A stretch of 64,000 nucleotides of DNA from Kushneria aurantia DSM 21353 (GTDB taxonomy: Bacteria; Pseudomonadota; Gammaproteobacteria; Pseudomonadales; Halomonadaceae), in assembly GCF_000382245.1 (NCBI RefSeq), contig NZ_KB907869.1, forward strand, positions 1-64,000, in the 5' to 3' direction. Below the pieces are notes generated by a model, which worked only from the letters and a program-made list of their open reading frames with translations, did no database searches and was not told the DNA's origin. The translations under genes and the position numbers were made by a program. Below are positions 1 to 19,739 of this stretch, piece by piece (position 1 is the first letter of the stretch; the number at the start of each line of letters is the position of its first letter).

Positions 1-13
1 CGCAAGCAGGCCT

Positions 14-736
14 TCAATAAAGCCCGCCGTTGACTGCAATCACCTGGCGGGTTACGTAGGCGCTATCCGGCGAGCAGAGGAAACTGACCACCCCGGCGAC
101 CTCCTCGGCGCTGCCCATGCGCTGCATCGGTACCACCTTTTTGATCTCGACGTCGCTGCCTGCCGTCATATCGGTGTCGATCCAGCCCGGGGCCACACCG
201 TTGACCGTGATCCGTCTTTTGGCCAGTTCCAGCGCCAGCGACTTGAGCGCCGCGATCACGCCGCCCTTGGCGGCAGCGTAATTCACCTGGCCGCGATTGC
301 CCACCTGGCCCGCCGCCGATGAGAGCGCCACGATGCGCCCGCCGCGGCGGCGCTGGATCATCGGCATCACCAGCGGCCGGAGGACGTTGTAGAAACCGCC
401 CAGATCGACGTTGAGAACGCTGTCCCACTGTTCATCGCGCATGCCGGGGAAAGGCGCGTCGTGGTGGAGCCCGGCGTTGAGCACCACTCCATAGTAGGCG
501 CCGTGCTCGGCGATATCCGCCTCCAGCCGCTGACGGGCCTGCTCGCGCTCGCCGACATCGAATGCCAGCCGCCGCGCGCAGCGCCCCAGCGCCTCGATCT
601 CGGCGCACACCTCGCGTGCTTCGCATTCGCGGCTTTTGTAGTGCACCACGATATCGAAACCGTCGGCGGCCAGCCGCAGGGCGCAGGCGCGGCCGATGCC
701 GCGGCTGGCGCCGGTCACCAGTATCGTATTGGTCAT
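14..736 (-). CDS. 3-oxoacyl-ACP reductase, FabG/SDR family (APE ketoreductase)
   Basis: A 240-residue short-chain dehydrogenase that should reduce the 3-oxoacyl-ACP intermediate with NADPH during polyene chain growth in the cytoplasm. The nucleotide-binding motif TGASRGIGRA lies at about residues 8-17, NAG at about 88, and the catalytic Ser of ALSSAAG and Tyr/Lys of NYAAAKGG are all present. The length is normal for FabG. Its start overlaps the dehydratase stop by 4 bp (ATGA), so the two are translationally coupled as the last genes of the APE operon seen here. This is the only intact ketoreductase in the window: a degraded copy lies at 1586-1910 with its 5' stub at 5970-6004. Role (ApeQ-like) is inferred from context. 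Confidence 0.93.
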   Translation of the reverse strand: MTNTILVTGASRGIGRACALRLAADGFDIVVHYKSRECEAREVCAEIEALGRCARRLAFDVGEREQARQRLEADIAEHGAYYGVVLNAGLHHDAPFPGMRDEQWDSVLNVDLGGFYNVLRPLVMPMIQRRRGGRIVALSSAAGQVGNRGQVNYAAAKGGVIAALKSLALELAKRRITVNGVAPGWIDTDMTAGSDVEIKKVVPMQRMGSAEEVAGVVSFLCSPDSAYVTRQVIAVNGGLY

Positions 737-1268
737 GGCGCGTCTTCCTGATGGCCGGTGTCGGCTGTGTCGGCACGTGGGGTGGGCGGCGTCTGCAGCA
801 CGCTCAGGTCGGCTTCGGCCAGCGGTTGGTGGGTCTCGCCGTCATGCAGGCTGCCGATAAAACGCCCCAGGCCGCTGTCGGCAAGTACCTCCAGGCGCAC
901 TCGCACCTGCAGTGCGCGGTCGAAGGGCAGCCAGTCGCAGTGCGCCGTAAATCGCCGCGCGCCCAGCAGCATGCCCTCACGTGGTCCCTCGTCACCCTCG
1001 CCGGGATTGAGCGTTGACCAGGCGGCCGCCGCCTGAGCCATCCACTCCAGCGCAGCATGCACGTGTACCCCTTCGGCTTCTGCCAGCAGGTCGTCGCGAC
1101 GTGGTGTGACCTGTGCCACGATCTCGTCGCTGTCGACATTCACCACGCCGTCGAGCAGACACATCGGCCCCTGATGGGGGACCAGCATGGCGATATCGAC
1201 GGACAGCAGATAATCAGGCGTCATCGGTGCGTTCCAGCAGCAGAGCGGCATTGTTGCCGCCAAAGGCG
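702..1268. repeat. Direct repeat copy A (567 bp)
   Basis: Nearly identical, with no visible indels, to 5970-6536 at a constant offset of 5268 bp. It spans the first 11-12 codons of the ketoreductase, the whole dehydratase and the last codons of the ketosynthase. Identity stops abruptly at both ends (cggctggcg on the left, caaaggcg on the right). Scattered substitutions show the two copies have diverged slightly. Confidence 0.95.
733..1224 (-). CDS. ApeP-like hotdog-fold 3-hydroxyacyl-ACP dehydratase, copy A
   Basis: A 163-residue hotdog-fold protein expected to dehydrate 3-hydroxyacyl-ACP to the trans-2-enoyl form. The FabA/FabZ-like signature is present: PHQGPMCLLD near residue 16 with the catalytic His, and EWMAQAAAAW near residue 60 with the acidic partner. 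The ATG at 1224 is chosen because the equivalent start is used in copy B and because it overlaps the stop of the upstream ketosynthase tail (stop at 1214). The protein differs from copy B (6001-6492) at about 13 positions by eye, all outside the two motifs. It is translationally coupled to the intact ketoreductase. Whether both copies are expressed cannot be told from sequence, since copy A is cut off from the main APE operon by the insert. Confidence 0.88.
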   Translation of the reverse strand: MTPDYLLSVDIAMLVPHQGPMCLLDGVVNVDSDEIVAQVTPRRDDLLAEAEGVHVHAALEWMAQAAAAWSTLNPGEGDEGPREGMLLGARRFTAHCDWLPFDRALQVRVRLEVLADSGLGRFIGSLHDGETHQPLAEADLSVLQTPPTPRADTADTGHQEDAP

Positions 1269-1375
1269 CGCTTGGCAGGGTCGACCTCCAGCGTGGTGAC
1301 CTCGGCATCGTCGTTCAGCAGGCCTGGATAGTAGTGGGTGTACCATTCGCAGCCCACCATCAGAATCCGTTTCAT
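1214..1375 (-). pseudogene. Chimeric ORF: methyltransferase-like start fused to ketosynthase C-terminus
   Basis: A 53-codon open frame from ATG 1375 to TGA 1214. The last 16 residues (FGGNNAALLLERTDDA) match the end of the intact ketosynthase at 6482-7663. The first part (MKRILMVGCEWYTHYYPGLL, then VTTLEVDP) does not; it looks like the first beta strand and acidic loop of a class I SAM-dependent methyltransferase, recognised only by eye. The junction lies at the Phe-Gly codons, where both parents plausibly share sequence. Too short to be an enzyme; read as the scar of the duplication that made copy A. It could still be translated and couple expression of dehydratase copy A. Confidence 0.7.
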
Positions 1376-1585
1376 GTCGTCGCGCTCGGCGGTAGCAGGC
1401 AGAATGCGCTAAGCGGTCAGGGTAGGGGTAGCGCAGCCGCACTCCGCGCTGGTCCAGCGCTCTGAATGCACGAGGCCCTGATAAAGCGTCGCTTTCGCGC
1501 CCATGAATTCTCCTCTGGATCAGTATTGTTGTTCATGGAACACCCCCTGTGAAGGGGCTGCTTTCCCGAGACTGAATAGAGAGCG
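1376..1585. other. Scar region without an intact gene
   Basis: Lies between the chimeric ketosynthase stub and the ketoreductase pseudogene. On the minus strand a good ribosome binding site (AGGAG) precedes an ATG at 1503 that opens only 31 codons (MGAKATLYQGLVHSERW..., stop at 1408); a second frame continues to 1221, suggesting a frameshifted gene start. I do not recognise the product. It probably belongs to the same foreign or relocated segment as the methyltransferase-like start. Confidence 0.5.
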
Positions 1586-1910
1586 TCAGTAGGGCCTGCC
1601 GTTGACCGCGATGCGTCTTGTGGACAGCGCCAGCGGCCTGAGCGCCGTGATCACGCCGCCCCTGATGGCGGCGTAATTCACCTGGCCGCGATTGCTCACC
1701 TGACCCGCCGCCGAGGAGAGCGCCACGATACGCCCGCCGCGGCGGCGCTGGATCATCGACATCACCACAGCGGCCGGAGGACGTTGTAGAAACCGTACGG
1801 ATCGACGTTGAGGACGCTGTCCCACTTTTCATCGCGCATGCCGGAGAACGGCGCGTCGTGGTGGAGCCCGCATAGTAGTTGCCGTGCTCGGCGATATCCG
1901 CCTACAGCAG
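1586..1910 (-). pseudogene. Degraded ketoreductase (fabG) copy, 3' part
   Basis: Aligns with positions of roughly 185-527 of the intact ketoreductase gene. It has an internal deletion that joins the RRITVNG region directly to the C-terminal VNGGLY region, giving RRIAVNGRPY then stop; a 2-bp insertion near 1768 (catcaccacagcgg versus catcaccagcgg); and a loss of about 14 bp near 1870. Both indels shift the frame, so no functional SDR can be made. The matching 5' end of this copy is found about 4 kb away at 5970-6004, so the copy was interrupted by the insert. Confidence 0.85.
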
Positions 1911-2237
1911 CTCTGATTGGGACCATCAAACGTCTCGGGCATTTTGATCACAATAGCCCGATTTTTTGCTACTGATGTATGACAGCTGTGCCCGCATTGC
2001 TCTCATTGTGGCACCATCCTGAAGGCACAGTGAATGATCGCAAGGGGATAGGTGGAGCCGTGCGTTACCAATTTCCGGATGTTGTGTTTTAAATGATTTG
2101 TCAAAAGAGTACGTGCATAGGCGCAACGGAATCCGCTTCTGGTGGCGCTATCTTTTAACGAAGAGTCCATGCTCAGGCATCTCCTCCGGGAATGCTTCGC
2201 ATGATTTTTCAGGCCTTGCAATAATGTGAGATATAAA
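1911..2237. other. Left non-coding part of the insert
   Basis: 327 bp of AT-rich sequence between the ketoreductase pseudogene and the LysR gene. Short open frames on the minus strand (1926-2126, 2003-2221) resemble nothing I recognise and lack ribosome binding sites. It should contain the LysR promoter, but no convincing -35/-10 pair was picked out. Confidence 0.4.
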
Positions 2238-3134
2238 ATGGAATTAAGGCATTTAAGATATTTTGTTGCTGTTGCTGAAAATCTTCACTTCGGTCAAGCT
2301 GCACGGCAGCTAAATATTTCTCAGCCGCCGCTCAGTAGTCAGATTAAAAACCTGGAGGAAGAGGTTGAGGTTCAGTTGTTGATTAGAAATAACAAGGAGG
2401 TAAGGCTGACACCGGCAGGAAAGAATTTCCTCACGGCGGCTAAAAATTGCATAGCCACCCTGGAGCGTGATATTGCGGTGACGCGAAGAATTGCCGAGGG
2501 TAAGCAGGGTAGTGTTTCGATTGGTTTTAGTGGAACAATGTCGTTCCATCTTGTACCGGAGATTGTAAAGAATTTAAATGAACACCATCCGGATATTGAT
2601 ATCCAGCTTCAGCAACTAACCACACATGATCAGGTTGCCAGCCTATTACATGGTGATATCGATGTCGGTTTTTTAGTGTCACCTGTGCTGGATGATCGGA
2701 TTGATACCGTAGCCATAGTTGAAGAACCATTTGTAGCCTGTTTGCCTGAAACTCACGAATTGGCACAGGCAATTGAGCCCTTGAATCTGGGGAAGCTGAG
2801 TTGCGATGCGTGGGTTATGACGCCAAGGGAAGCTGGCCATGGCTACTATGATGCAGTTCTCGCACTCTGTAACGGACATGGATTTAGCCCTCATGTTGTT
2901 CAAAACGCTCAGGAGCAACAGACACTTGTTGCGCTCGTCGCGGCGGAGGTAGGGGTAGCGCTATTGCCTGCCTCAGCCGCATGTATCATAAATGAAAGGG
3001 TCGTTTTTAAAACTATTAATTCTGACGTTAAAAAAATAAACTCCATGGCGTGGAACCCCGCCTTACTCACAGACGTTGGTGCCTTTTTTGTGAGCTATAT
3101 TCGCGCCAATTTTATTGGCGGCACGAAAACCTGA
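2238..3134 (+). CDS. LysR-family transcriptional regulator
   Basis: A 298-residue regulator with the standard LysR layout: an N-terminal winged helix-turn-helix (MELRHLRYFVAVAENLHFGQ, then AARQLNISQPPLSSQIKNLE) over residues 1-60 and a periplasmic-binding-protein-like effector domain after about residue 88. The ATG at 2238 is preferred over the GTG at 2226 because LysR proteins of this subgroup start MELRHLRYF. It is convergent with the YfcC carrier and sits in the AT-rich insert, so it is the natural candidate to control the M24-carrier operon through the dyad at 5871-5893. The effector is unknown. The N-terminus resembles the BenM/CatM-like subgroup, but this does not fix the ligand. Confidence 0.9.
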   Translation: MELRHLRYFVAVAENLHFGQAARQLNISQPPLSSQIKNLEEEVEVQLLIRNNKEVRLTPAGKNFLTAAKNCIATLERDIAVTRRIAEGKQGSVSIGFSGTMSFHLVPEIVKNLNEHHPDIDIQLQQLTTHDQVASLLHGDIDVGFLVSPVLDDRIDTVAIVEEPFVACLPETHELAQAIEPLNLGKLSCDAWVMTPREAGHGYYDAVLALCNGHGFSPHVVQNAQEQQTLVALVAAEVGVALLPASAACIINERVVFKTINSDVKKINSMAWNPALLTDVGAFFVSYIRANFIGGTKT

Positions 3135-3154
3135 AGCCATCGTGCCGCTGTGTG

Positions 3155-4570
3155 TCAGAATGGGCCTAAATTGATCATGACAGCGATGCTCAAGGCGACA
3201 GCACCGATTGCCATCCATATAAGTAGCAGTGGAATCACGAATTTTATCCACTTGATCCATGGAATGCCACCGATGGCAATGCTGGCCATCAAGATACCTG
3301 AGGTTGGTGTGACAATATTGGTAAACCCATCTCCAAAGTTATAAGCCAGGACAGCAACTTGTCGCGTTAGTCCAATGGCGTCGGCCAGTGGCGCCATGAC
3401 AGGTACGACGATGGCAGCCTGACCGCTAGCAGAGCTAATAATAAGGTTGAATCCGAGATTGAAGATATACATTCCCAGTGCAGCTACGACATGTGGCAGC
3501 GGGCCCAGCATTACAGCAATACTGTTAACGATAGTATCCAATACATATGCGTCTTCGAGTACAACGACGATAGCTCGAGCCAAACCAACGATGAGCGCTG
3601 CATAGAGCATGCCCTGAGCGCCCTGAATAAACAGGCGCACATATTGATTTGGGTTTATCCTGTTGATAGCGGCCGTTCCGAGGCTTATAACCATAAATAG
3701 CGCGCCCATCTCGCTAAGCCCCCAGCCTAACGTAAAAACTCCAGTGACGTAACCTGTCATACAGAGTGTGAAATAGGCAAGAATGATCTTATGAAGTTTT
3801 GTGAAATTGTTGGGGATGGAAGAAGAGTTTTCAATTTCAGCGGGGAAGGGAGTCTTTCCAAGAATAGACTGGCTTTGATCTTTTGAAATTTTTGATATGT
3901 AGCGGCAAAGGTAAATCACTGTCGCGGCAAGTACGCAAAGGTAGACAGCAAATCGGAACCAAAGTCCGCTGAATACAGGAAGGCCTGCAATCTCCTGACC
4001 GAATCCCGTAGTGATTGGGTCAAGTCCACCAATCGTATAGCCGGCATAAGCCCCCAGGTAAATAATCGCGACGCCCGCGATGGCATCCAGTTTGAAGGCG
4101 CGAGCGATAATAATGCCGATAGGTATAAATGCGATTACGGCGGTTTGCAAGGCGCCTATAAAACCTGCGATGGAGAAAACTACAGATACCGTGACAACAA
4201 GGGAGTACTTCTTCCCTCTTGTCTTGTTGATAAGGCGCATGATACCAGCTTGTATGGCTCCCGTGTAGTCGAGTATCGCAAAAGCGCCACCTATGATTAA
4301 TACCAAAAAAATTATATTGGCCGAGTCAATGAGGCCTGCCTGGATCGAGAGAAAGAAATCCAGCAGTGTCGTTGGGTTTGAGTGGAGAGACTGATAGCTG
4401 TCCGGAACAACCATGGGGACGTTATCGCCGGTTGTCCTCTCGAAGCTTCCCGCTGGGATCAACCATGTGGTTATAGAAGCCACGATCAGCATGGCGAGCA
4501 GGATAACGTATGAGTCTGGTAAAGCTCTCTTCTTGTCTTTCTTGCTGCTGGGGTTTTGAGGTATATTCAT
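3155..4570 (-). CDS. YfcC/DcuC-family membrane carrier
   Basis: A 471-residue polytopic inner-membrane protein with about 12 hydrophobic segments and a charged cytoplasmic N-terminus (SSKKDKKRALPDSYVILLAM). The features GGAFAILDYTGAIQAGI near residue 95 and the C-terminal GDGFTNIVTPTSG fit the C4-dicarboxylate anaerobic carrier/YfcC family (PF03606), whose members take up dicarboxylates, amino acids or peptides. The ATG at 4570 has an AAGAGA ribosome binding site. It lies 46 bp downstream of the creatinase-like M24 gene in the same direction, which suggests the carrier imports the substrate, or exports a product, of that enzyme. Specific substrate unknown. Confidence 0.85.
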   Translation of the reverse strand: MNIPQNPSSKKDKKRALPDSYVILLAMLIVASITTWLIPAGSFERTTGDNVPMVVPDSYQSLHSNPTTLLDFFLSIQAGLIDSANIIFLVLIIGGAFAILDYTGAIQAGIMRLINKTRGKKYSLVVTVSVVFSIAGFIGALQTAVIAFIPIGIIIARAFKLDAIAGVAIIYLGAYAGYTIGGLDPITTGFGQEIAGLPVFSGLWFRFAVYLCVLAATVIYLCRYISKISKDQSQSILGKTPFPAEIENSSSIPNNFTKLHKIILAYFTLCMTGYVTGVFTLGWGLSEMGALFMVISLGTAAINRINPNQYVRLFIQGAQGMLYAALIVGLARAIVVVLEDAYVLDTIVNSIAVMLGPLPHVVAALGMYIFNLGFNLIISSASGQAAIVVPVMAPLADAIGLTRQVAVLAYNFGDGFTNIVTPTSGILMASIAIGGIPWIKWIKFVIPLLLIWMAIGAVALSIAVMINLGPF

Positions 4571-4616
4571 TTTGATCTCTTCTTGTACTGATTGTGTAGG
4601 GATATGCTTTCACATT

Positions 4617-5795
4617 CTAGATAATGAGAGATTCGAGGTCTCTTGGGTAATATGTGATCATTTCCATTCCCTTGTCGGTTACCACAATCGTATCGGAGTG
4701 TCGAAACGCGCCTATACCCTCTACATATAGACCAGGCTCTATGGAAAATACCATGCCTGGCTCAAGTATGGTTTGATCACCCAAATCGAAAAATGGCGCC
4801 TCATGGTTCAGGAGTCCCATGCTATGGCCCGAATGGTGTTTCGCATAATCCAGGAGTTTGTTTTCCCTGAAGTACTTTTGAACTTCCTCCTCAATACGGC
4901 AAGCTGGAAGGCCTGGCCTGATAGTTCGGAATGCTATTTCCTGGGCTTCATGCATGTGGCGAAAGAAATTTTCCTGAGTTTTCGAAACTTCTCCGATAAA
5001 CATCGTCCGTTCGAGTTCGCTTTTATAGCCCCACACGTCGCTGGCTGCCTGTGAGACTACGTTATAGCCGGTCTTGAACATTGCATTCTGGTTCTGGGAG
5101 TGTGGGAAAGCCGAGTGCTCCCCTATCTGACCTCGATAGAAAGCGTGAGCGGGAGAGCCATAAGGCCTATAACCGGCACCCAGGGTGTCGAACATTGCAC
5201 GAGTTGCTTCATTTGTGGAACGGCTTTCGGCCTCAATCTCTCGCTCTCCGGGAACCGTGTATTTGACCAGTAATGTATGTGCCAGATTGCCCCAACGTGC
5301 GGATTCTCTGATTAATTCAATTTCGTTGTGAGATTTAATATAGCGCTGCTGTTCGACGACTCCCTTGAGAGACTTTGTCTCTTTAAATGAGCATATGGTG
5401 GTTAGATGAGGGCCTGTATAACCCTTTGCAGAGGCATATCCCTCGGCATCCACACCTACCCTGAGATTTTTAAAATTTCTATCTTCAAGTATGTTGGCCA
5501 TGTATTTCATTGGATGGGTCTTGCCAGGGTACTCTGGATATTCGTGAGTTTCTTCAATCACCGCATAGCGATGTGCGTGCTCACGTTCCATACGTGGGAC
5601 CAATAGAGAGAAAATGCCTTTCGGATCGATTATGAGGGCAATCGGACGCTCGGAAGGTCGAAAATGAAAGCCTGTAAGGTAAAAAATATCAGTCACACTA
5701 AACAAGACGGCAGCATCACATTCCTTTTTTTGCAATGTTTCAAAAAATGTCTGCTGCCTGGATTTAATTTCCGATTCGGGAATTTCCAAAATCAT
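4617..5795 (-). CDS. Creatinase-like M24-fold hydrolase with altered metal site
   Basis: A 392-residue protein with an N-terminal creatinase/prolidase domain (residues 1-150, including FSVTDIFYLTGFHFRPSERP) and a C-terminal M24 pita-bread domain. The M24 His motif is present (HHSGHSMG) and so is IEPG. The metal-binding set is otherwise changed: the DxG Asp is replaced within VVSQAASDVWGY, the second Asp is Glu (SELERT), and the final RxED motif reads FRHSD. Creatinase is a known metal-independent member of this fold, and the LERT and C-terminal regions look like it, so hydrolysis of a small C-N compound rather than a peptide is plausible. GGAGA-like ribosome binding site before ATG 5795. First gene of an apparent operon with the carrier. 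Confidence 0.78.
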   Translation of the reverse strand: MILEIPESEIKSRQQTFFETLQKKECDAAVLFSVTDIFYLTGFHFRPSERPIALIIDPKGIFSLLVPRMEREHAHRYAVIEETHEYPEYPGKTHPMKYMANILEDRNFKNLRVGVDAEGYASAKGYTGPHLTTICSFKETKSLKGVVEQQRYIKSHNEIELIRESARWGNLAHTLLVKYTVPGEREIEAESRSTNEATRAMFDTLGAGYRPYGSPAHAFYRGQIGEHSAFPHSQNQNAMFKTGYNVVSQAASDVWGYKSELERTMFIGEVSKTQENFFRHMHEAQEIAFRTIRPGLPACRIEEEVQKYFRENKLLDYAKHHSGHSMGLLNHEAPFFDLGDQTILEPGMVFSIEPGLYVEGIGAFRHSDTIVVTDKGMEMITYYPRDLESLII

Positions 5796-5870
5796 GCGGG
5801 CTCTCCATGGAATAGATTATGGAAAGCTATCAGGTTCTTTCTATAGAGGTAAAATACTGTTTATGTTTTA

Positions 5871-5893
5871 AACGATACGCGAAACATATCGTT
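5871..5893. promoter_or_regulatory. Candidate LysR-type operator
   Basis: Perfect inverted repeat AACGATA-N9-TATCGTT, containing a T-N11-A core, 76-98 bp upstream of the M24 start. This is the form and position expected of a LysR-type binding site. An AT-rich promoter-like stretch lies between it and the gene. Binding by the LysR protein at 2238-3134 is inferred. Confidence 0.6.
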
Positions 5894-5969
5894 GCTAACG
5901 TTTACCCAAAAGCATGGGTCAGCGCTATAATGCCTGCTCTCACTAGTGTCCCCCACTTCCCGATATCAA

Positions 5970-6004
5970 CGGCTGGCGCCGGTCACCAGTATCGTATTGG
6001 TCAT
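5970..6004 (-). pseudogene. 5' stub of the interrupted ketoreductase copy
   Basis: The first 11-12 codons of the ketoreductase (MTNTILVTGAS), with its ATGA overlap to dehydratase copy B intact; the frame then runs into unrelated AT-rich sequence. It is the 5' end of the copy whose 3' part lies at 1586-1910. Confidence 0.8.
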
Positions 6005-6492
6005 GGCGCGTCTTCCTGATGGCCGCTGTCGGCTGTGTCGGTGCGGGAAGCGGGCGGCGTCTGCAGCACGCTCAGGCCGGCTTCGGCCAGCGGTTGGTGG
6101 GTCTCGCCGTCATGCAGGCTGCCGATAAAACGCCCCAGGCCGCTGTCGGCAAGTGCCTCCAGGCGCACTCGCACACGCAGCGCACGGTCGAAGGGCAGCC
6201 AGTCGCAGTGCGCCGCAAATCGCCGCGCGCCCAGCAGCATGCCCTCACGTGGTCCCTCGTCACCCTCGCCGGGATTGAGCGTTGACCAGGCGGCCGCCGC
6301 CTGAGCCATCCACTCCAGCGCAGCATGCACGTGTACCCCCTCGGCTTCTGCCAGCAGGTCGTCGCGACGTGGTGTGACCTGGGCCACGATCTCGTCGCGG
6401 TCGACATGCGCCACGCCGTCGAGCAGACACATCGGCCCCTGATGGGGGACCAGCGTGGCGATATCGACGGACAGCAGTGAATCAGGCGTCAT
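6001..6492 (-). CDS. ApeP-like hotdog-fold 3-hydroxyacyl-ACP dehydratase, copy B
   Basis: A 163-residue paralogue of the protein at 733-1224 with the same PHQGPMCLLD and EWMAQAAAAW signatures, so predicted to dehydrate 3-hydroxyacyl-ACP. The ATG at 6492 overlaps the ketosynthase stop (6482) by 11 bp, which shows it is the copy still transcribed with the main APE operon. Downstream, its natural partner, the ketoreductase, is destroyed. Either copy could serve the pathway; differences are scattered and conservative, with no sign of inactivation. Confidence 0.88.
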   Translation of the reverse strand: MTPDSLLSVDIATLVPHQGPMCLLDGVAHVDRDEIVAQVTPRRDDLLAEAEGVHVHAALEWMAQAAAAWSTLNPGEGDEGPREGMLLGARRFAAHCDWLPFDRALRVRVRLEALADSGLGRFIGSLHDGETHQPLAEAGLSVLQTPPASRTDTADSGHQEDAP

Positions 6493-7663
6493 CAGTGCGT
6501 TCCAGCAGCAGAGCGGCATTGTTGCCGCCAAAGGCGAAGGCGTTGGAGAGCGCCAGGCGCGGCGGCGAGCGGTCGAAGCCGGCCTCGATCAGCGTCAGCG
6601 GCATCAGTGTCGGGTCGAGCGGCAGCTCGTGCACATGGCGGGGATAGAAGCCGCGTTCCAGCGCCAGCCAGCAGAAGGCCGCCTCCAGCGCGCCGGCGGC
6701 GCCCAGCGTATGGCCGGTGAGCGCCTTGGTGGCGCTGGCAGGCGGTGCTGCGTCGCCGAAAAGCGCGTGCAGGGCGCGCGCCTCCATGGCGTCGTTGTGG
6801 CGGGTGGCGGTGCCGTGCAGGTTGAGGTAATCCACCTCTGCAGGACGGCGCCCGGCCATGTCGAGGGCAGCGCGCATGGCTTTCAGGGCGCCGCTGCCCT
6901 CCGGGTCAGGCGCCGAAATATGGTGGGCATCCGAGCTTTCGCCGTAGCCCGTGAGCTGAATGCCGCCCGTTTCACGGGTCACCACGAACAGGGCCGCTGC
7001 CTCGCCTATGTTGATGCCGCCGCGCTCGGCAGTGAAGGGTTGGCAGGCTGTGTCGCTGATCGCGCCCAGCGCATCGAAGCCGTTGATGGTCAGACCGCAC
7101 AGCGTATCGGCGCCGCCGGCGATCACCGCGTCAGCCTGACCGGAGAGCAGCAGCCGGCGCGCGGCGGACAGCGCCCGGGCGCCGGAGCTGCAGGCGGTGG
7201 AGATCGTCCAGGCCGGTCCCGCAAGCCCCAGCCGGTCGCGAATGAAGTGCGCCGGCGCGCCCAGCTCCTGGTGAGCGTAGCGATAGCGTTCATCGAAAGG
7301 CTGTCCCGGTCCACAGCGCGCTATCGCCGCTTCTGTTTCGGAGATGCCCGAGGTGCTGGTGCCCATGACGACGGCGATGCGCTCCGGGGCATGATGGCTC
7401 AGAGCGGCATCGAGCGCCTCGCCCAGCGCCGCCAGCGCACTGGCGATCAGGCGATTGTTGCGGCTGGCCCACTCGGCCGGCCAGCCCTCGGCATCTGCCA
7501 GCGGCGCTTCGATGGCGCCCAGCGCCAGCGGCCGTCCCGGCGTGTAGCGGTCGCTGTCGGTCAGGCCGCGCCGGCCGTCACGCAGTGCCTGGACGATGCG
7601 CTCATGATCGGCACCGAGGCTGCAGATCACTGCCGGGCGAGATAGGCGGCAGGGCGCTGTCAT
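6482..7663 (-). CDS. Beta-ketoacyl-ACP synthase, FabF-like (APE ketosynthase)
   Basis: A 393-residue condensing enzyme expected to extend the ACP-bound polyene chain with malonyl units. The nucleophile Cys is in STACSSGARA near residue 155, the first His in LHGTATRHND near 290, the second in TGHTLGAAG near 325, and the C-terminal FGGNNAALL is typical. The ATG at 7663 is chosen over a longer upstream frame because it overlaps the preceding gene's stop (ATGA, 7660). APE systems use a ketosynthase paired with a chain-length-factor-like partner plus a second ketosynthase; a second one would be expected just left of this window. The last codons of this gene are repeated in the chimeric ORF at 1214-1375. 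Confidence 0.92.
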   Translation of the reverse strand: MTAPCRLSRPAVICSLGADHERIVQALRDGRRGLTDSDRYTPGRPLALGAIEAPLADAEGWPAEWASRNNRLIASALAALGEALDAALSHHAPERIAVVMGTSTSGISETEAAIARCGPGQPFDERYRYAHQELGAPAHFIRDRLGLAGPAWTISTACSSGARALSAARRLLLSGQADAVIAGGADTLCGLTINGFDALGAISDTACQPFTAERGGINIGEAAALFVVTRETGGIQLTGYGESSDAHHISAPDPEGSGALKAMRAALDMAGRRPAEVDYLNLHGTATRHNDAMEARALHALFGDAAPPASATKALTGHTLGAAGALEAAFCWLALERGFYPRHVHELPLDPTLMPLTLIEAGFDRSPPRLALSNAFAFGGNNAALLLERTDDA

Positions 7664-8211
7664 GACGCTGAGGTCTCGCCGAAGGGAGCGATCACCATGC
7701 GAAAACCGAACTGAAAATCGGTCAGTACCTTGCGGCCATCCCGGAAGCCGTCGATACGCGCGCGCAGGGTATCGCCCTGGTAGATGCGCCGCACCGGGCC
7801 ATGCTCGAAGTGCTGCTGTTCGACCCGCCATTCACTGCCGGCAAAGGCACGCGCCAGCTCGGCTTCGGAACGCAGGCTCCACTCGAGGCGCTGAGCGAAC
7901 CAGCCGGCGGGGAAGGGGGGATCCATCAGACTCTGCGTATAACGCGCGCCGTCGGCGTCACGCTCCAGCGTCATCAACCGCTGGCCGGTGGGTGTCGTGA
8001 CCACCACGCGCATCCCCTCCGGGGTGAGGCGGGTGACCGTCAACAGGGTGCGCTCGGGCTGCGTATCGTCGAATGGCTCGAGAGTCAGGCGGCGCTTGAG
8101 GGTTTGCGTTTCGCTCCAGCCGGCCGGCGGCTGGGGCGCCATGCTCGGCACGCTACAGGCGCTCAGCGTCAGGACAAGCAACAGGGCAACAGCAGGACGC
8201 GCTTTGATCAT
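7660..8211 (-). CDS. DUF3261 lipoprotein of the APE cluster
   Basis: A 183-residue protein with a lipoprotein signal: Lys-Arg start, hydrophobic core VALLLVLTL and lipobox LSAC with the modified Cys at about residue 19. The mature part is soluble and matches the DUF3261 family regularly found in APE clusters. It is probably anchored in the outer membrane and helps place the polyene lipid there together with the LolA-like and MMPL proteins; this role is inferred from context. ATG 8211 overlaps the flavoprotein stop at 8208; a longer frame to 8226 is less likely because it would lie inside the flavoprotein gene. Confidence 0.8.
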   Translation of the reverse strand: MIKARPAVALLLVLTLSACSVPSMAPQPPAGWSETQTLKRRLTLEPFDDTQPERTLLTVTRLTPEGMRVVVTTPTGQRLMTLERDADGARYTQSLMDPPFPAGWFAQRLEWSLRSEAELARAFAGSEWRVEQQHFEHGPVRRIYQGDTLRARIDGFRDGRKVLTDFQFGFRMVIAPFGETSAS

Positions 8212-9452
8212 GAGGCGTATCCGCACAGGGCGGCCAGGGTATCGAGGTGACGGCGCGGCCGCGCCACGAAGGGGTTATCGGTATCCCACACATAACCGGC
8301 CAGCACGGCGCTGATAGGGCGTCGCAGCCAGTCGGGCGGTTCGGGGTGAAAGATGATGGCCGGTAAACGGCCATCGTACCAGGCCTCGACGAAGGCGCGA
8401 AAGACATCAATGCCGCGTCGTAGCGGCTGCTCCCATTCGCGCTGCCAGTCGACCGCTTCGTCGTCCAACTGGCGGTCGATCAGCGGCGCGGCGAGACAGG
8501 CAGAGCGCACTGCCACGGTTACGCCGGAGGAGAAGATAGGGTCGAGAAACTCACCGGCGTTGCCCAGCAGCCGGTAGCCGGGGCCGATGAGCGAGCGGGT
8601 ATTGCGGCTGTAGTCGTCAAGCGCCGCTACCGGGCGGTGAAAGTGGCGAGTATCGAGCCATTCGCCCAGTTCCTCGAACTGCGCCAGGCAGGCCCTGAAG
8701 GCGTCAGACGGGTCACCGCCGTCGTTCAGCGCGCTCGCCTGTGAGGTCTCGCCGACGAAACCCAGCGAGGCGCGACCGCTGGAGAAGGGAATCAGCCAGT
8801 ACCATAGCGCCGCCGAATCGCTCAGGCCGATCTGAATGCTGTCGCGCTGAAAACCCGGCGCCGGTGTTTTCAGCGATAGATGGCTGAACAAAGCGCGCCG
8901 CGCGCTCAGGTGCGCCTCGCTGCGGGTTCCCTCGAGGCGCGGCAGCAGCTGGGCGAAGCCGCTGGCATCCAGCACCAGCCGCGCGCCGAGGCGATAGCGT
9001 TGACCGTCGTCACGCTCGATCGTGACAGCGGGACGTACCGGGTCGGCGTCGAAGGCGACGGCACGCTCGCCGAAGCGGGTTTCGGCGCCGCGCGCCGCGG
9101 CGGCCTCGATCAGGCGTTGATCGAAATCGGCACGCTCTACCTGCCAGGCGCGACCGGGGCCGGCACAGCTCTTGTCGCTGAAATCGATATCGACGCGCTC
9201 GGCGCCGCGCACGAAGCGCGCGCCGCCCTTGTGCTGAAAACCGGCCGCCGCGATGACACCGTCGAGACCGCTGCGCTGCAGATCGTCGAGGCACTGCGGC
9301 AGCAGGCTCTCGCCGATCGCAAAGCGCGGGAAGTGGCTCGCCTCGATAACCCTGACATGCCGGCCGCGCTCGGCCAGCAGGGCGGCGGCGACCGCCCCGG
9401 CGGGGCCGGCGCCGATGATGGCGATGTCGGTATCGATGTCGACTGCGCGCAT
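8208..9452 (-). CDS. FAD-dependent oxidoreductase, tryptophan-halogenase-like fold (APE cluster)
   Basis: A 414-residue flavoprotein with an N-terminal Rossmann motif (AIIGAGPAGAVAAALLAERG, residues 9-28), then FPRFAIGESLLP near residue 42 and WYWLIPFSSGRASLGFVGE near residue 205. The last two are shared with flavin-dependent halogenases and geranylgeranyl-reductase-like enzymes. Such flavoproteins recur in APE clusters, where they may modify the aryl head group or polyene; the reaction is not established from sequence. It sits between the lipoprotein and exporter genes, 13 bp downstream of the MMPL stop. Confidence 0.82.
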   Translation of the reverse strand: MRAVDIDTDIAIIGAGPAGAVAAALLAERGRHVRVIEASHFPRFAIGESLLPQCLDDLQRSGLDGVIAAAGFQHKGGARFVRGAERVDIDFSDKSCAGPGRAWQVERADFDQRLIEAAAARGAETRFGERAVAFDADPVRPAVTIERDDGQRYRLGARLVLDASGFAQLLPRLEGTRSEAHLSARRALFSHLSLKTPAPGFQRDSIQIGLSDSAALWYWLIPFSSGRASLGFVGETSQASALNDGGDPSDAFRACLAQFEELGEWLDTRHFHRPVAALDDYSRNTRSLIGPGYRLLGNAGEFLDPIFSSGVTVAVRSACLAAPLIDRQLDDEAVDWQREWEQPLRRGIDVFRAFVEAWYDGRLPAIIFHPEPPDWLRRPISAVLAGYVWDTDNPFVARPRRHLDTLAALCGYAS

Positions 9453-9465
9453 GGCTGCCTTCTCC

Positions 9466-11781
9466 TCACCCGTCGGTAGCCGATTCGCGCCGCTGCACCA
9501 GCGCAGTAAGCAGCCATACGCCGGCCAGCCCGATCAGGGTGGTCATGCCGATATAGTGCAGCACGGGCGTGGCGCTGAAGGCCAGCAGGCCAAAGGCCAG
9601 CAGGCTGGAGAGGATCGACAGGGTGATCGCCAGCCAGGCGTGGTGCGCGCGGGGATGCTCCTGCATGAAGATACCGGCATCCAGCCCGATGCCCAATACC
9701 AGCAGCAGTGCCAGCTGGTGAAAGAGGTTGATCGGTACGCCGAGCAGCGCATAGAGGCTCAATACGCCGAGAATGGCACCGCCCGCCGGTGCCAGCACGC
9801 GCCAGCTGCGGCGTCGGTAGCGCAGCGTCAGCAGGGCGGCCACCAGCGCCAGCGCACCGGCCACCCACAGGGCGATCTGACGGCGCAGCTCGCCCAGTAC
9901 CGTCGAAATGCGTGCCACCCGGTCGACCAGCTCGACCCCCGGGGTCTGTTCGGCCAGTTCGGCCAGCGACGTGCGGGCCTGCGCGTCGGCACGGCCGCTG
10001 AGGGTGATCATGCCGGCCACGCCGCTGTCGCTTGCGTCGCTGTTGGCGCCCAGCCACAGGCGCCGGTCGGCCTCACCGGCGGATGTGGCCAGCCACGCCT
10101 GCAGGTCGAGAAAGGGCGGGGCGTCGAGTTCGGCGCGGGCGCGGGGTGCCAGTGCCGCGGGCAGGCCGGCGGCGGCCAGCAGGGGATCGAGCTCGCGGTC
10201 GTAGAGGGTACGGGTCAGCGCCAGGTTGTGGCGCTGGCGCTGATGTGAAGGGACATGCTCGGCAAGGCTCGAATAGCCGCCCAGGTGGCCTTCGGCCACC
10301 AGCCGGTCGAGAGGTGCGGCAAGTGTCTCGGCGCGTTCGAGAAAAGCCTCACGGTCGGCGGCGTCGATCAGCAGGTAGAGTGAACCGGTATCGCGCCCCA
10401 ATTCGCGCTGGATCAACTGCTCGTCCTCGATCAGGCGCGGCGACGAGGTGTTGATCAGCCGCAGGCTGTCATCGCTCTCCAGGCGTAGACCGACCAGTAC
10501 CAGTGCCGCCACTGCCAGCAACGCTGCCCGGCGCGGCCCCAGCCGGCCGCGCAGCCGTGCCAGTACCTGCCACAGCCGAAGCGCCAGCCGTTCGGTGCCG
10601 GGGTGGCAGCTTATCCTGATCAGCGGCAGCCACAGCACTACGCTGAGCCAGGCGCCGATCAGTCCGAGGGCAGCGAATACCGCCATCTGCTTGAGCCCCG
10701 GCAGTGGGGTAAAGGCCTGCACGACATAGGCGGTAACGCTGGTGACCAGCCCCAGTGCCAGACCCGGCAGCATGCTGGCCAGCCGGAACCGGCTGCCGCC
10801 GAGCGTGCGGGCGCACTGCAGGTGCAGGGCGTAGTCGATCGCCACACCGATCAGGCTGCCGCCGAAGGCCAGCGTCAGCAGGTGAATACTGCCAAACAGA
10901 GTCAGGGTCAGACTGAAGGCAAACAGCCCGCCGGCTGCCAGCGGCAGCAGCAGCGTGGCCAGGGTGCGCGGCGAGCGAAACACCAGCAGCAGAATGGTCA
11001 ACACGCCGAGCAGCGAGCCCAGCCCGATGGTGTTGATCTCGCGGCTCGCCTGTCGTGCGCCGTCGGCGGCGTGGAATACCATGCCCGAGCGCCACAGCTG
11101 CACGTCGGGATGGGCCGCTTCGAAGTCGCGCAGCGCGTCGGTGAGCCGCGACTGCAGGGCCGGCGTCCAGGCGCTGCCGGCCAGCCGGCCGGTGATCGCC
11201 ACCAGCGCGTGGCCGTCGACCTCGAGCGTGATCAGCTCACCGCTGGTGTCAAGGCGGCTGGAGAAGGCGCCCTCGACCCAGCGGTCGAGCAGCGCGAAGG
11301 GGTCGCGCAACGGATGCTGATCCAGCGCGGTGGGCATCACCAGGGTGGCCAGTGCCTGCTGGCGCAGCGCCGCGGTGTCGCCGGCGGCGATATCGTCGGC
11401 CAGGCCCGGTGTCAGCAGCCGATAGCGCGCCGGACCGAGAAGATCGATCAGGCTGTCGAGCGGAAAGTCGCCGGGACGGTAGCGCAACTCATCGATTGCT
11501 CCGGAGGCGCGCAGTCGTTCGGCCAGCGCGTCGCTGGCACGGCGCCTGTCGGGGGCGTCAAGCAGCAGCACGAAGCGGTCGGTAAAGGGGGCGGCAAGCT
11601 GGGCATTGGCACGCTCGATGCGCGGTGACTGCGCGGTTTCGGGCAGCAGGGCGGTCACCCGGGTGTCGAAGCCGGCGCCGTGCATCAGCTGCCAGCCGCC
11701 CAGCGCCGCACAGGCCAGCAGTACCGATAGCCACAGCAGTGCCAGCCACCGTATGGGCGTGGTTCCCGGCATCACGCTCAA
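9466..11781 (-). CDS. MMPL/RND-family exporter
   Basis: A protein of about 771 residues with an N-terminal membrane helix, a large periplasmic domain (about 30-230), a block of five or six helices (about 240-420), a second periplasmic domain (430-600) and a second helix block to the end: the duplicated RND/MMPL plan. It should move the finished aryl polyene lipid across or out of the inner membrane and pass it to the LolA-like protein. The start is a TTG at 11781 whose TTGA overlaps the LolA-like stop; the next in-frame ATG is 11772. The same TTGA arrangement recurs at 14111. Confidence 0.88.
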   Translation of the reverse strand: MSVMPGTTPIRWLALLWLSVLLACAALGGWQLMHGAGFDTRVTALLPETAQSPRIERANAQLAAPFTDRFVLLLDAPDRRRASDALAERLRASGAIDELRYRPGDFPLDSLIDLLGPARYRLLTPGLADDIAAGDTAALRQQALATLVMPTALDQHPLRDPFALLDRWVEGAFSSRLDTSGELITLEVDGHALVAITGRLAGSAWTPALQSRLTDALRDFEAAHPDVQLWRSGMVFHAADGARQASREINTIGLGSLLGVLTILLLVFRSPRTLATLLLPLAAGGLFAFSLTLTLFGSIHLLTLAFGGSLIGVAIDYALHLQCARTLGGSRFRLASMLPGLALGLVTSVTAYVVQAFTPLPGLKQMAVFAALGLIGAWLSVVLWLPLIRISCHPGTERLALRLWQVLARLRGRLGPRRAALLAVAALVLVGLRLESDDSLRLINTSSPRLIEDEQLIQRELGRDTGSLYLLIDAADREAFLERAETLAAPLDRLVAEGHLGGYSSLAEHVPSHQRQRHNLALTRTLYDRELDPLLAAAGLPAALAPRARAELDAPPFLDLQAWLATSAGEADRRLWLGANSDASDSGVAGMITLSGRADAQARTSLAELAEQTPGVELVDRVARISTVLGELRRQIALWVAGALALVAALLTLRYRRRSWRVLAPAGGAILGVLSLYALLGVPINLFHQLALLLVLGIGLDAGIFMQEHPRAHHAWLAITLSILSSLLAFGLLAFSATPVLHYIGMTTLIGLAGVWLLTALVQRRESATDG

Positions 11782-12350
11782 GTGCCCGGGCTGGCGTTGG
11801 TCGCGGTGTCGGTCAGCAGGTGAATATCGAGGCGGTCACCGTCGGCCATGGCCATCTGCACGTTTTCGAGCTGCGCGCCGCCACGCATGTCGATGCGTTC
11901 GAGGTATTCGGCAAGCCCCGCCTGGCGCGGCCGCAGCGTGGCATGCCAGTTCGCCTCGCTGCCCTGCAGATCGATCTCGAAGCGCTCGGCCAGCGCCGCC
12001 AGCCGGCCGTTGAGCAGCTGCATGATCAGCGTCGCCACGCCGGCCGGGTCATCCTGGAGCGCCTCGCCGTTGTGGCGAATGCCCGCCTCGGAGAGCTCCA
12101 GCGTCTCCTTCACCGGCTTTTCGAGTTGCCAGATCACCCGTTCGCCCTGCTCGAAGCGATAGCGACCGCTGCCTTCGATGCGGGTATCCAGATCGGCCAG
12201 GTAGCGGCTCTGCTCGAAGCGCCCGGAGACGTCGCCGCTGACGGCGAGATGCTCGGCCAGTGACGCGACGCTCAGGGCGTGAGCCGCCGGCACGATCGAC
12301 AGCGCCAGCATGGTGGTCATCAGCAGTAGACGTAAACGGCGAAAGGGCAT
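11778..12350 (-). CDS. LolA-like outer-membrane lipid carrier
   Basis: A 190-residue secreted protein with a signal peptide (MPFRRLRLLLMTTMLALSIV, cleavage after AHA near residue 25) and a LolA-type domain: SGRFEQSRYLADLDTRIEGS near residue 45 is the typical QxKxL-like start. It probably binds the hydrophobic polyene lipid in the periplasm and carries it to the outer membrane. ATG 12350 is chosen over a longer frame because it places the signal peptide at the N-terminus. It overlaps the MMPL start, as expected for partners in one export path. Confidence 0.85.
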   Translation of the reverse strand: MPFRRLRLLLMTTMLALSIVPAAHALSVASLAEHLAVSGDVSGRFEQSRYLADLDTRIEGSGRYRFEQGERVIWQLEKPVKETLELSEAGIRHNGEALQDDPAGVATLIMQLLNGRLAALAERFEIDLQGSEANWHATLRPRQAGLAEYLERIDMRGGAQLENVQMAMADGDRLDIHLLTDTATNASPGT

Positions 12351-12357
12351 TGCGATA

Positions 12358-13329
12358 TCAGCTCCCGGAGGACTCCGGCACGCGCTGTTCCGGGGTGGCG
12401 GACCGGGCGTGCCAGAAGGCATAGAAATTGAACCACTGTAGTGGATAGCGACAGCAGTAGTGTTCCAGACGTTCCACGAACAGGGTCATGGCGGTGGCGA
12501 TCCATGTCGAACGTTCGCGCCGTGACGGGTCGGCGCCGTCGCCGAGGGACTCGAAGTGGACGTGATAATGCCCTTGATGACGGGCGCAGATCAAAAAGTA
12601 GAGCGGGCAGCGCAGCAGGGTGGCGAGCCAGAAGGCGCCCTCGGGAAAGGGCGCCGTCGCGCCCAGAAAGGAGATATCCCGGCGTCTGGCATGCTGTTCG
12701 ATGGGGTCGCGATCGGCGGCGATGACCACGAAACCGCCGGCTGCAATACGCGCCTGCAGGCGTTGAGCGGTGGCCGGTCCCATGTCGCTGACCTCGATCA
12801 GTTCCACTGCCATGGGCCGCTCGATATCGTCGAACAGCGCGTTGAAGCGCCGGGCATGGTGGGTGTGCATCACCAGACTCATTGACAGCTCCGGTCGCAG
12901 CCGCCCCAGCAGCTGGCAGATTTCATGGTTGCCGAGATGGCTGACCACGATCAATCCGCCGCGGCCGCTTTCGATGGCGGCGGCGAGACGGTCGCGATCC
13001 ATCACCCGGACACGGTCGAGATCGAGCCGACCGTGGAGGGCAAGGATACGCTCCAGCATGGCGGTACCAAAGCTGGTGAAGTGGGCCAGGGTGGCAAGAC
13101 GCGGTAGTCTGACGCCGGGGCAGAAGTGGCGCAAACGGTGCTGATATTCCCGCGAGGCGCGCCGCGCCAGCGGCCGACGCAGCCAGTAGTAGAGGGTCAC
13201 CGGCGCCAGTACGGCGCGAAACACGCCCATGCCCAGGCGCTCGTGAATCGCCAGCATCAGGCGAATGCCGGCGGTCGAGCCGGATTCGCCGATCGACGCC
13301 CAGTGGCGCTCCCGGTCTGCGCGCGACAT
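12358..13329 (-). CDS. LpxL/HtrB-like acyltransferase
   Basis: A 323-residue protein of the lauroyl/myristoyl acyltransferase (LABLAT) family. The HX4E catalytic motif appears as VVSHLGNHEICQ near residue 132. In APE clusters these enzymes are thought to attach the polyene chain to its lipid or sugar anchor at the inner membrane. ATG 13329 overlaps the glycosyltransferase stop (ATGA); the open frame extends upstream to 13752, but that portion is the antisense-like shadow of the glycosyltransferase gene and is rejected. Confidence 0.87.
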   Translation of the reverse strand: MSRADRERHWASIGESGSTAGIRLMLAIHERLGMGVFRAVLAPVTLYYWLRRPLARRASREYQHRLRHFCPGVRLPRLATLAHFTSFGTAMLERILALHGRLDLDRVRVMDRDRLAAAIESGRGGLIVVSHLGNHEICQLLGRLRPELSMSLVMHTHHARRFNALFDDIERPMAVELIEVSDMGPATAQRLQARIAAGGFVVIAADRDPIEQHARRRDISFLGATAPFPEGAFWLATLLRCPLYFLICARHQGHYHVHFESLGDGADPSRRERSTWIATAMTLFVERLEHYCCRYPLQWFNFYAFWHARSATPEQRVPESSGS

Positions 13330-14111
13330 CAGCGCTGCTCCTCGCCGGCGGGCGTGGCGCTGCGGCGCGCCAGCAGTGACGGCAGGCGGCGCAGCATGCC
13401 AGCGGTCAGGCGCAGGTGCATGCGGGCCATCAAAAGGTTGTCGCGCAGCAGCCGGAAATGTGACACGCCATCCACCGGGTAGCGCACGCGCACCGGCAGA
13501 TTGTCGACCGCGCCACCCTGCCAGAACCAGCGCACCAGCACTTCGGTATCGAACTCCATGCGATCGCCACAGGCGTGACGTGCCAGCAGGGCGTTGATCG
13601 CCGCCAGCGGATAGAGGCGCACGCCGCACATGGTGTCGCGCAGCCGTATCGACAGGGTGTTGCCCCATACCCAGAGGTGGGTAATGTAGCGGCTGGCGAA
13701 GCGCAGCCAGGGCACGCTGTGATCGAAACGGGGATAGCCGATCATCAGGCACGTCGGATGGCGTCGGCCGGCGTCGATGAAAGGCGCCAGCGAGGCGCTG
13801 TCGTGCTGGCCGTCGGCATCGACCTGCAGGGCGTGGCTGTATCCCAGCGCGGCGGCATGGCTCAGTCCTTCGCGCACCGCACGCCCCTTGCCGCCGTTAT
13901 GCGCCAGTCGCAGCAGCCTGACGTCGTCTTCAGCCGTCAGTGCGTCGAGCACGCCGGCGCACTCCCGGTCGCTGCCGTCATCGACCAGCAGGATCGGCAG
14001 TCCCAGCGCTTCGCGCAGGGCCTGACAGGTTGCGGCCACGGCGTGCTCGTGGTTGTAGACCGGTATCAGCACGCAGGGGCGAAAGGCGTCATGCGGGTGC
14101 TGCTCGCTCAA
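13329..14111 (-). CDS. Glycosyltransferase family 2
   Basis: A cytoplasmic-facing GT-A transferase of about 260 residues, with PCVLIPVYNHEHAVAATCQA at about residues 13-32, the nucleotide-binding VDDGS near 47 and the metal-binding QVDADGQHD near 100. It likely adds a sugar to the polyene lipid or its carrier. There is no good ATG near the expected N-terminus; a TTG at 14111, whose TTGA overlaps the upstream stop at 14108, fits the family start and mirrors the MMPL gene. The much longer frame to 14318 lies inside the ligase gene and is rejected. In many APE clusters this domain is fused to the acyltransferase; here they are separate but overlapping. Confidence 0.85.
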   Translation of the reverse strand: MSEQHPHDAFRPCVLIPVYNHEHAVAATCQALREALGLPILLVDDGSDRECAGVLDALTAEDDVRLLRLAHNGGKGRAVREGLSHAAALGYSHALQVDADGQHDSASLAPFIDAGRRHPTCLMIGYPRFDHSVPWLRFASRYITHLWVWGNTLSIRLRDTMCGVRLYPLAAINALLARHACGDRMEFDTEVLVRWFWQGGAVDNLPVRVRYPVDGVSHFRLLRDNLLMARMHLRLTAGMLRRLPSLLARRSATPAGEEQR

Positions 14112-15775: not shown

Positions 15776-16320
15776 GCCGCCGCCCGGCGTCGCGCGCGCC
15801 GACGCACAGGGTATTCGAGGGCCATCAGCAGGGCGGGCGGCAGATACGCCAGTGCCCCGTTCCACAGCTGCCACAGCCACAGCGGCGCCCATAGCGCGGT
15901 GGCCAGCGCCGCCAGCGTATTAGCGCTCAGCAAAAGCCCCCAGACCAGCGTCAGGCGGCGGGTATAGCGCACGCCCGAGGCAGGCAGTCCGGGTTCGCTC
16001 AGGCGTGCCAGGCGTTCGATCAGCGGCGTCCTGGCCAGGCTGGCGAGAAAGGCCGCGGCCAGCGCCAGATTGAGCGCTACCGGATAGCAGCGCACGCCCA
16101 CCTCCGCCCGGCCGCCGATCAACGTCGCGCTCAGCAGCGCCGCCAGCGTCAGCGTCAGCCAGCGCCGCTCACTGCGCCGCAGGGCGGCGATCAGGCAGAG
16201 TGCGATCAAAACGATCAGCAGCGCCTGCACGCCCAGCAGGGGCAGCACCACCCACAGCGCCAGCGGCAGGGCGGCGAGCGGCAGTAGCGCGAGCAGTGAC
16301 GACGGCGGGCGCGGCGGCAT
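15772..16320 (-). CDS. COG4648-type membrane protein of the APE cluster
   Basis: A 182-residue integral membrane protein with about five hydrophobic stretches (residues 8-48, 55-68, 80-96, 125-145, 148-172) and an Arg-rich cytoplasmic tail (YPVRRRARRRAAA). It fits the COG4648 family found next to the ACP and ligase genes in APE loci. Function unknown; a scaffold that holds the soluble enzymes at the inner membrane is one guess. Overlaps the ligase gene by 4 bp. Confidence 0.78.
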   Translation of the reverse strand: MPPRPPSSLLALLPLAALPLALWVVLPLLGVQALLIVLIALCLIAALRRSERRWLTLTLAALLSATLIGGRAEVGVRCYPVALNLALAAAFLASLARTPLIERLARLSEPGLPASGVRYTRRLTLVWGLLLSANTLAALATALWAPLWLWQLWNGALAYLPPALLMALEYPVRRRARRRAAA

Positions 16321-16334
16321 GGCGGCTATCGCCT

Positions 16335-16610
16335 TCAGTCGGTGCGGCGTTCGGCAACCAGCGCGCTCAGCTTGCGCAGGCTGGCGAAGTGGTCGCGGTT
16401 CTCCTCGGCATCGCTGTCAAGGCGAATGCCATAGCGCTTTTGCAGGGCGAGGCCCAGCTCCAGTGCATCGATCGAGTCGAGCCCCAGGCCGTCGCCGAAC
16501 AGCGGTGCCTGCGGGTCGATATCGTCGGCGCTGATATCCTCGAGCTCCAGCGCGTCGATAATCATGTGGGCGACATCGCGTTCCAGCTCGCTCAGCGGGT
16601 GATCGGACAT
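16335..16610 (-). CDS. Acyl carrier protein (APE cluster)
   Basis: A 91-residue acidic four-helix ACP with the phosphopantetheine site in DGLGLDSIDALELG (Ser near residue 43). It carries the starter and growing polyene between ligase, ketosynthase, ketoreductase and dehydratases. The ATG at 16610 is chosen over an upstream frame (16685) with no ACP-like sequence. Characterised APE systems encode two ACPs; only this one is seen here, followed upstream by a 124-bp gap. Confidence 0.93.
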   Translation of the reverse strand: MSDHPLSELERDVAHMIIDALELEDISADDIDPQAPLFGDGLGLDSIDALELGLALQKRYGIRLDSDAEENRDHFASLRKLSALVAERRTD

Positions 16611-16734
16611 CCTGCTTCTCTCTGTTGCCGCAGCGGTCTGACGCCGCTGCATGCCGGCCCCGTGGCCGGGGTGGCGTGGTGTCATGGTGGCGCTATGATG
16701 CCAGATTCGCCCGCCGCTTGCCTGCGCTCGAGGT

Positions 16735-17451: not shown

Positions 17452-17529
17452 GGGGCTCTCCGTAACCAACAGCGGCGATTTTAAGCAGCCCCGGGTGGAT
17501 TGATAAAGCCCGCGCTCTTTGCATGCGCT

Positions 17530-19735: not shown

Positions 19736-19739
19736 GGCG

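Follow-up and report, generated by a model that had tools for sequence, protein, structure and literature searches.

A duplicated and interrupted ketoreductase end in a predicted aryl polyene gene cluster of Kushneria aurantia

Organization of the cluster end

We analyzed the first 64,000 bases (the window) of contig NZ_KB907869.1, here called C8 (134,807 bases), from the genome of Kushneria aurantia DSM 21353 (GCF_000382245.1; 3.75 Mb in 61 contigs, with estimates of 99.98 for completeness and 0.04 for contamination). Its left end carries a gene cluster that, judged by gene families and gene order, appears to be of the aryl polyene (APE) type: an ApeP-like dehydratase (DH), present in two copies that both match PF22817, lies in order with a ketosynthase (KS) and a ketoreductase (KR), and both the KS-DH-KR order and the families are those of ApeO, ApeP and ApeQ. 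The end of this cluster is duplicated, and one of the two ketoreductase copies, KR2, is interrupted by a block of other DNA, block C (Table 1).

Table 1. Features of the duplicated cluster end, in window coordinates
Feature	Coordinates	Strand	Basis
Contig-end overlap with contig C54, exact, 159 bases	1..159	+	exact end-overlap comparison
KR1, intact 240-aa APE-type ketoreductase (ApeQ/FabG-like), copy 1	14..736	-	PF13561/PF00106; NF004200 and TIGR01831 above cut-off
DH1, ApeP-like dehydratase, copy 1	733..1224	-	PF22817; 163-aa open frame
KS tail, final 55 bases of the KS frame, duplicated along with DH1	1214..1268	-	relatives and join alignment
Duplication join, 11 shared bases CGCCAAAGGCG, KS tail/methyltransferase (MT) head	1258..1268		native KS, native C16 MT and window join aligned
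MT2, decayed 5' part of the methyltransferase gene (~85 of 200 codons), with its upstream stretch	1269..1583	-	relatives' gene order, alignment
KR2 3' part, pseudogene, with further internal loss of ~171 bases	1586..1912	-	alignment to KR1
Inserted block C, GC 46.7%	1913..5969		edges where KR similarity stops
LysR-type regulator	2226..3134	+	PF00126, PF03466
DcuC/YfcC-like carrier	3155..4570	-	PF03606; NF008611 below cut-off
M24 peptidase, Xaa-Pro dipeptidase-like	4617..5795	-	PF00557, PF01321; NCBIfam matches all below cut-off
KR2 5' stub, first 11 codons	5970..6004	-	alignment to KR1
DH2, ApeP-like dehydratase, copy 2, native position after KS	6001..6492	-	PF22817; 163-aa open frame
KS, native ketosynthase	6482..7831	-	PF00109/PF02801; NF006618 above cut-off

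The near identity of 702-1268 and 5970-6536 at a fixed offset of 5268 bases, which the initial annotation of this DNA had pointed out, was confirmed: the two stretches are direct copies, equal at 544 of 567 bases (23 mismatches), and the match is bounded exactly there. As a control, 20,000 random ungapped placements were drawn in 7000-64000, and the best matched at 214 of the 567 bases. The copies comprise the first 11 KR codons, the entire ApeP-like dehydratase and the final 55 bases of the ketosynthase frame.

The duplicated unit and its join

At 1268/1269 the copied KS tail meets the head of a methyltransferase gene. Native KS and native MT have the 11 bases CGCCAAAGGCG in common at this point, and there is no other DNA at the join: the two native neighbors abut directly. 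A KS tail abutting an MT head at shared bases is the signature of a tandem copy of a unit that ran from the one to the other. Summing its parts, the copied unit has 1592 bases (about 1.6 kb) and consists of the 55-base KS tail, the dehydratase, the ketoreductase and ~85 codons of the methyltransferase head, in two head-to-tail copies. Over 1269-1583, 293 of 316 ungapped bases equal those of an intact MT on another contig of the genome, C16 (MT family PF08241, 23.0 bits against a cut-off of 21.2). Thus, a tandem copy of the ketoreductase-dehydratase-ketosynthase end, as had been proposed, holds as to the tandem copying; however, the unit is longer than proposed and also holds the MT head. Three marks of a microhomology tandem duplication were found here, namely adjacent direct copies with a new end-to-end join, few shared bases at it and an ancestral single copy. 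A microhomology-joined tandem duplication with 9-base borders is described in the accessible part of PMC11111574.

The single-copy arrangement in relatives

The initial annotation had suggested aligning related APE clusters in search of an uninterrupted single copy. Such a copy of KS-DH-KR was present in all nine other Kushneria genomes, where MT directly follows KR and MT-KR-DH-KS is single and unbroken, and in each of 80 wider loci that we fetched. The latter were the best 80 of 571 found, and four of them belong to the Kushneria genomes G001, G002, G008 and G009; 79 were tallied from named-query matches of more than 45 bits starting after base 9500, and L092 was examined separately. Many of the 80 contain a further KS, and two (L082 and L101) a second KR-like match (33%) ~6-7 kb off, all of which were treated as separate genes. 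The duplicated end with its inserts was not seen in any of the compared loci (9 Kushneria, 80 wider). On these alignments the uninterrupted single copy is the ancestral arrangement. We also considered that block C might be ancestral at this site and rejected this on the uninterrupted relatives and a family-wide search for the block. Our literature searches surfaced only a Nocardia genome study for aryl polyene with Kushneria, nothing on tandem duplication and insertion in an aryl polyene gene cluster, and nothing linking Kushneria with tandem duplication.

One intact and one decaying ketoreductase

KR1 is 78-80% identical over its full length to its counterparts in seven of the nine Kushneria relatives and 70% identical over residues 5-240 in the other two, and the next full-length match within its own genome is 42% identical. 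KR1 therefore appears to be the only full-length APE-type ketoreductase in the genome, in agreement with the earlier suggestion that the left copy supplies the only working one. The APE ketoreductase of E. coli is given as ApeQ, and every gene of that cluster, with the possible exception of apeR, seems to be required (accessible part of PMC8253772).

KR2 is present, as had been described, as a 3' part and a 5' stub in the correct order and orientation, with about 170 bp lost between them. The 11 residues that the stub encodes are identical to the N-terminus of KR1. In the 3' part, 1625-1767 aligns to KR1 230-372 (92%), 1768-1870 to KR1 371-473 (93%) and 1871-1912 to KR1 490-531 (90%), and the missing middle corresponds to the 170 bases of KR1 532-701. 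The second, internal loss, near the 3' end, lies at short repeats (CCGTTGAC in the window); the C16 relatives of its two ends share a 14-base exact repeat. KR1 and KR2 could be compared at 326 positions, of which 34 differ. When the changes were polarized by the commonest base among the nine relatives, 28 fell on KR2 and 3 on KR1, with 3 unclear. By this pattern KR1 is conserved and KR2 is decaying. KR1 has the motif YAAAK and KR2 has YAAIR at the same place, which we take to match the positions of Tyr153 and Lys157 of FabG. These two are named as FabG catalytic residues in the part of PMC8041823 that is accessible.

At the position equivalent to the KR2 insertion site, KR1 bears no trace of block C. 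In a tree, DH1 and DH2 clustered together (ultrafast bootstrap 92, Shimodaira-Hasegawa-like approximate likelihood ratio test (SH-aLRT) 84), with the DH frames taken from the ATG at MTPD and the relatives trimmed to the tblastn match. Together with the ancestral single copy, these observations support the reading first put forward for this DNA, a tandem copy followed by insertion into one of the copies. Its further suggestion, that the duplication may have made the insertion tolerable, is consistent with a conserved KR1 and a decaying KR2.

The order of events could in principle have been the reverse, with block C breaking a single ketoreductase and an intact KR1-DH1 then arriving from a sibling strain. 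A nearly unchanged KR1 beside a decayed KR2, and DH copies that differ at 23 bases, would fit such a rescue. However, it requires a stage with no working ketoreductase, and the imported piece would have had to join exactly at the 11-base overlap of native KS and MT. We consider it improbable.

The two DH frames are both open; each may be functional, or one of the two may be losing constraint. A promoter scan of 1200-6600 gave 6 sites against 5.7 expected and so provides no evidence of a DH1-KR1 promoter. To the right, the cluster from 6482 to 20594 is collinear with genes of G004. The G004 cluster has ~1.9 kb extra (L179 ~12963-14835) between the genes that match window 16756-17451 and 17548-19182.

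Block C

The Pfam families of the three genes of block C bear out the LysR, carrier and M24 block that had been recognized between the KR2 parts. Its GC content is 46.7%, against 66.8% for KR1-DH1, and its flanks look native. Among the blocks at this locus it alone shows a gain of foreign DNA, judged by its GC, together with a loss of recipient DNA, namely the 170 bases of KR. A match to block C DNA was found in 15 of 275 family genomes (own included), and apart from the own genome five matches exceeded 2.5 kb (G006, G201, G202, G023 and G215). In G006, another Kushneria genome, the LysR, DcuC and M24 genes stand in the same order at another locus, with protein identities of 64, 80 and 76%. 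This copy (L129 4847-8446) lies at an unrelated locus, beside frames that by eye are permease-like and acetamidase-like. A donor search with the M24 protein in 369 genomes of the class returned only the own genome at E <=1e-60, the threshold down to which matches were requested.

The differing GC of block C, and two transposase-gene remnants in block B (see below), could suggest that KR was the target of a transposon or integrative element. However, there is no recombinase among the three genes of block C, none of the three small frames at the block edges matches a Pfam family, no terminal or flanking repeats of at least 14 bases fitting its ends were found, and the window contains no detected tRNA gene. 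Moreover, the matches in G006, G201 and G202 span the block C genes and end short of both block edges. With neither a transposase or integrase nor defined ends, block C was rejected as a transposon, and a mobile element of either type is hardly credible here.

Genes to the left of KR1

Base 1 of the window is the end of contig C8 and falls inside the ketoreductase region, so the initial annotation could see just the right-hand part of the locus. Exact end overlaps connect C16 with C54 (95 bases) and C54 with C8 (159 bases), and there is none between C16 and C8; these overlaps place the C16 genes to the left of KR1. In window orientation the order is a 174-aa gene, MT and a KR tail stub; block A; a KR fragment; a gene scrap, block B and transposase remnants; and KR1. 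On C16 the intact MT, the conserved 174-aa gene (no NCBIfam or Pfam match) and the decayed KR tail stub are arranged as in the relatives.

Block A contains genes for TetR, an aldo-keto reductase, an epoxide hydrolase, NmrA and TetR, and has a GC content of 64.6%. Its DNA gave some match, mostly short, in 111 of the 275 family genomes, the longest non-own match among those listed being 656 bases at 66% (G175). Block B (GC 50.6%) holds MocR, two GNATs and LysE. Some match to it was found in 236 of 275 family genomes; among the matches listed, the longest (~750-960 bases, 65-73%) were to the MocR gene and others to the transposase remnants in which the block ends. These remnants abut each other near the KR1 3' end (C54 (L009) 182-364 and 365-530). 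Their fuller relatives carry HTH_38 and rve domains, and we take them to be IS30-like and IS481-like. Relatives of both occur at several other sites in the own genome. The gene scrap, 64 codons at C54 (L009) 3906-4097, is aminotransferase-like by eye and has no Pfam match. Among the matches listed, it showed 80-88% DNA identity over ~195 bases to six genomes of one other genus (G162-G166 and G168; best G165, 88%) and had no match elsewhere in its own genome.

The KR fragment between blocks A and B, in which C16 ends, corresponds to window 12-277 with 2 mismatches in 266 bases and joins 48 bases of KS at GGCAGC. Since the fragment is nearly identical to KR1, the left part is presumably younger than the KR1/KR2 duplication. 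KR pieces lie at either end of C54 (4231 bases), and we considered whether this contig might exist solely as a circle of its own. This was rejected: by two base differences and by 11 bases past the KR stop, its right end goes with C8 and not with C16, and the exact overlaps also speak against a circle alone; a circle in addition to the chromosomal placement is conceivable.

A proposed history

We propose that the ~1.6-kb unit was copied inside the chromosome by illegitimate (microhomology) recombination. With two ketoreductase copies present, an illegitimate insertion-deletion would have placed the low-GC LysR/carrier/peptidase block in KR2 at the cost of 170 bases. Decay of KR2 and of the copied MT head would have followed while KR1 remained under constraint, and later events at the KR1 3' side would have left blocks A and B, parted by the nearly identical KR fragment. 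We give this history a probability of about 0.7. It predicts that recombination between the 567-base direct repeats should still occur, excising a circle of 5268 bases so that a single uninterrupted KR1-DH-KS remains.

Several observations weigh against this history. The grouping of DH1 with DH2 is slightly short of the program's 95/80 mark, and the native place is held by DH2, not DH1. Synonymous divergence (dS) between the DH copies is 0.064 and nonsynonymous divergence (dN) 0.042, a ratio of 0.64 with only 23 changes behind it. The host-like GC of block A leaves a foreign origin for this block unestablished. The repeats contain an exact run of 123 bases, longer than the 95-base contig overlap, so the assembler must have used longer information there. 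This run, a draft of 61 contigs and a window that begins at a contig end might suggest that the repeats or the block were misjoined. However, misjoining cannot create 23 DH differences, 34 differences in 326 KR positions or KR2's own deletion, and the contamination estimate is only 0.04; an assembly artefact is thus very improbable.

The same topology could also arise in one step, if imported DNA that carried a block and was homologous to KR/DH at one of its ends underwent unequal recombination with the chromosome, by homology-facilitated illegitimate recombination or merodiploid-forming transformation, so that duplication and insertion came about together and repeated events built the array. 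Three unrelated blocks lie in or at one gene with KR pieces between them, and the divergence of KR2 (28 changes in 326 positions) is close to the DH dS, so the duplication and the loss of KR2 may be near in time. The accessible parts of two reports are in line with such a process, arrays of this kind being proposed in PMC5361080 and transformation-made tandem duplications reported in PMC3784515. A ComEC-family gene is present above cut-off. However, ComEC is no proof of competence, since 10 of the 14 control genomes, among them that of E. coli, have it as well; the duplication join links two native neighbors with no other DNA, and the donor anchor would be indistinguishable from native sequence. 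We regard one-step capture as possible but unlikely.

A more general idea is that the KR end of the APE cluster is a self-feeding landing site, in which each partial KR copy gives homology for the next fragment and operons pile up bracketed by KR pieces, with no integrase and with one intact KR always kept. We find this doubtful.

Relation to known systems and implications

The accessible parts of three reports allow comparison with known systems. The duplications in PMC11111574 are likewise direct head-to-tail copies with a GC-rich join of ~10 bases and no need for a recombinase; the Kushneria case, however, is natural, several percent diverged and has one copy broken by other DNA. In Vibrio type VI secretion system immunity arrays (PMC5361080), for which homology-facilitated illegitimate recombination was proposed, modules likewise follow one another at a single gene and older pieces remain between them; in Kushneria, by contrast, it is a biosynthetic ketoreductase that recurs, the modules have no relation to this gene, and the arrangement is known here from one genome. 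Merodiploids made by transformation in Streptococcus pneumoniae (PMC3784515) similarly combine, on a single chromosome, a whole and an interrupted version of a gene; however, they span ~100-900 kb via repeats derived from insertion sequences, and the Kushneria unit is ~1.6 kb with an 11-base join.

The locus is known in kind and ordinary, and it is unusually legible as a single case. Gene duplication is held to free one copy to take damage. The K. aurantia cluster would be a natural case of this in which one can read the join, the sequence of events and how unequally the two ketoreductases have decayed. The prediction that the repeats can still collapse and restore an unbroken operon can be tested directly. 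Were the landing-site idea true, it would show how a biosynthetic cluster can accumulate operons with no mobile element involved.

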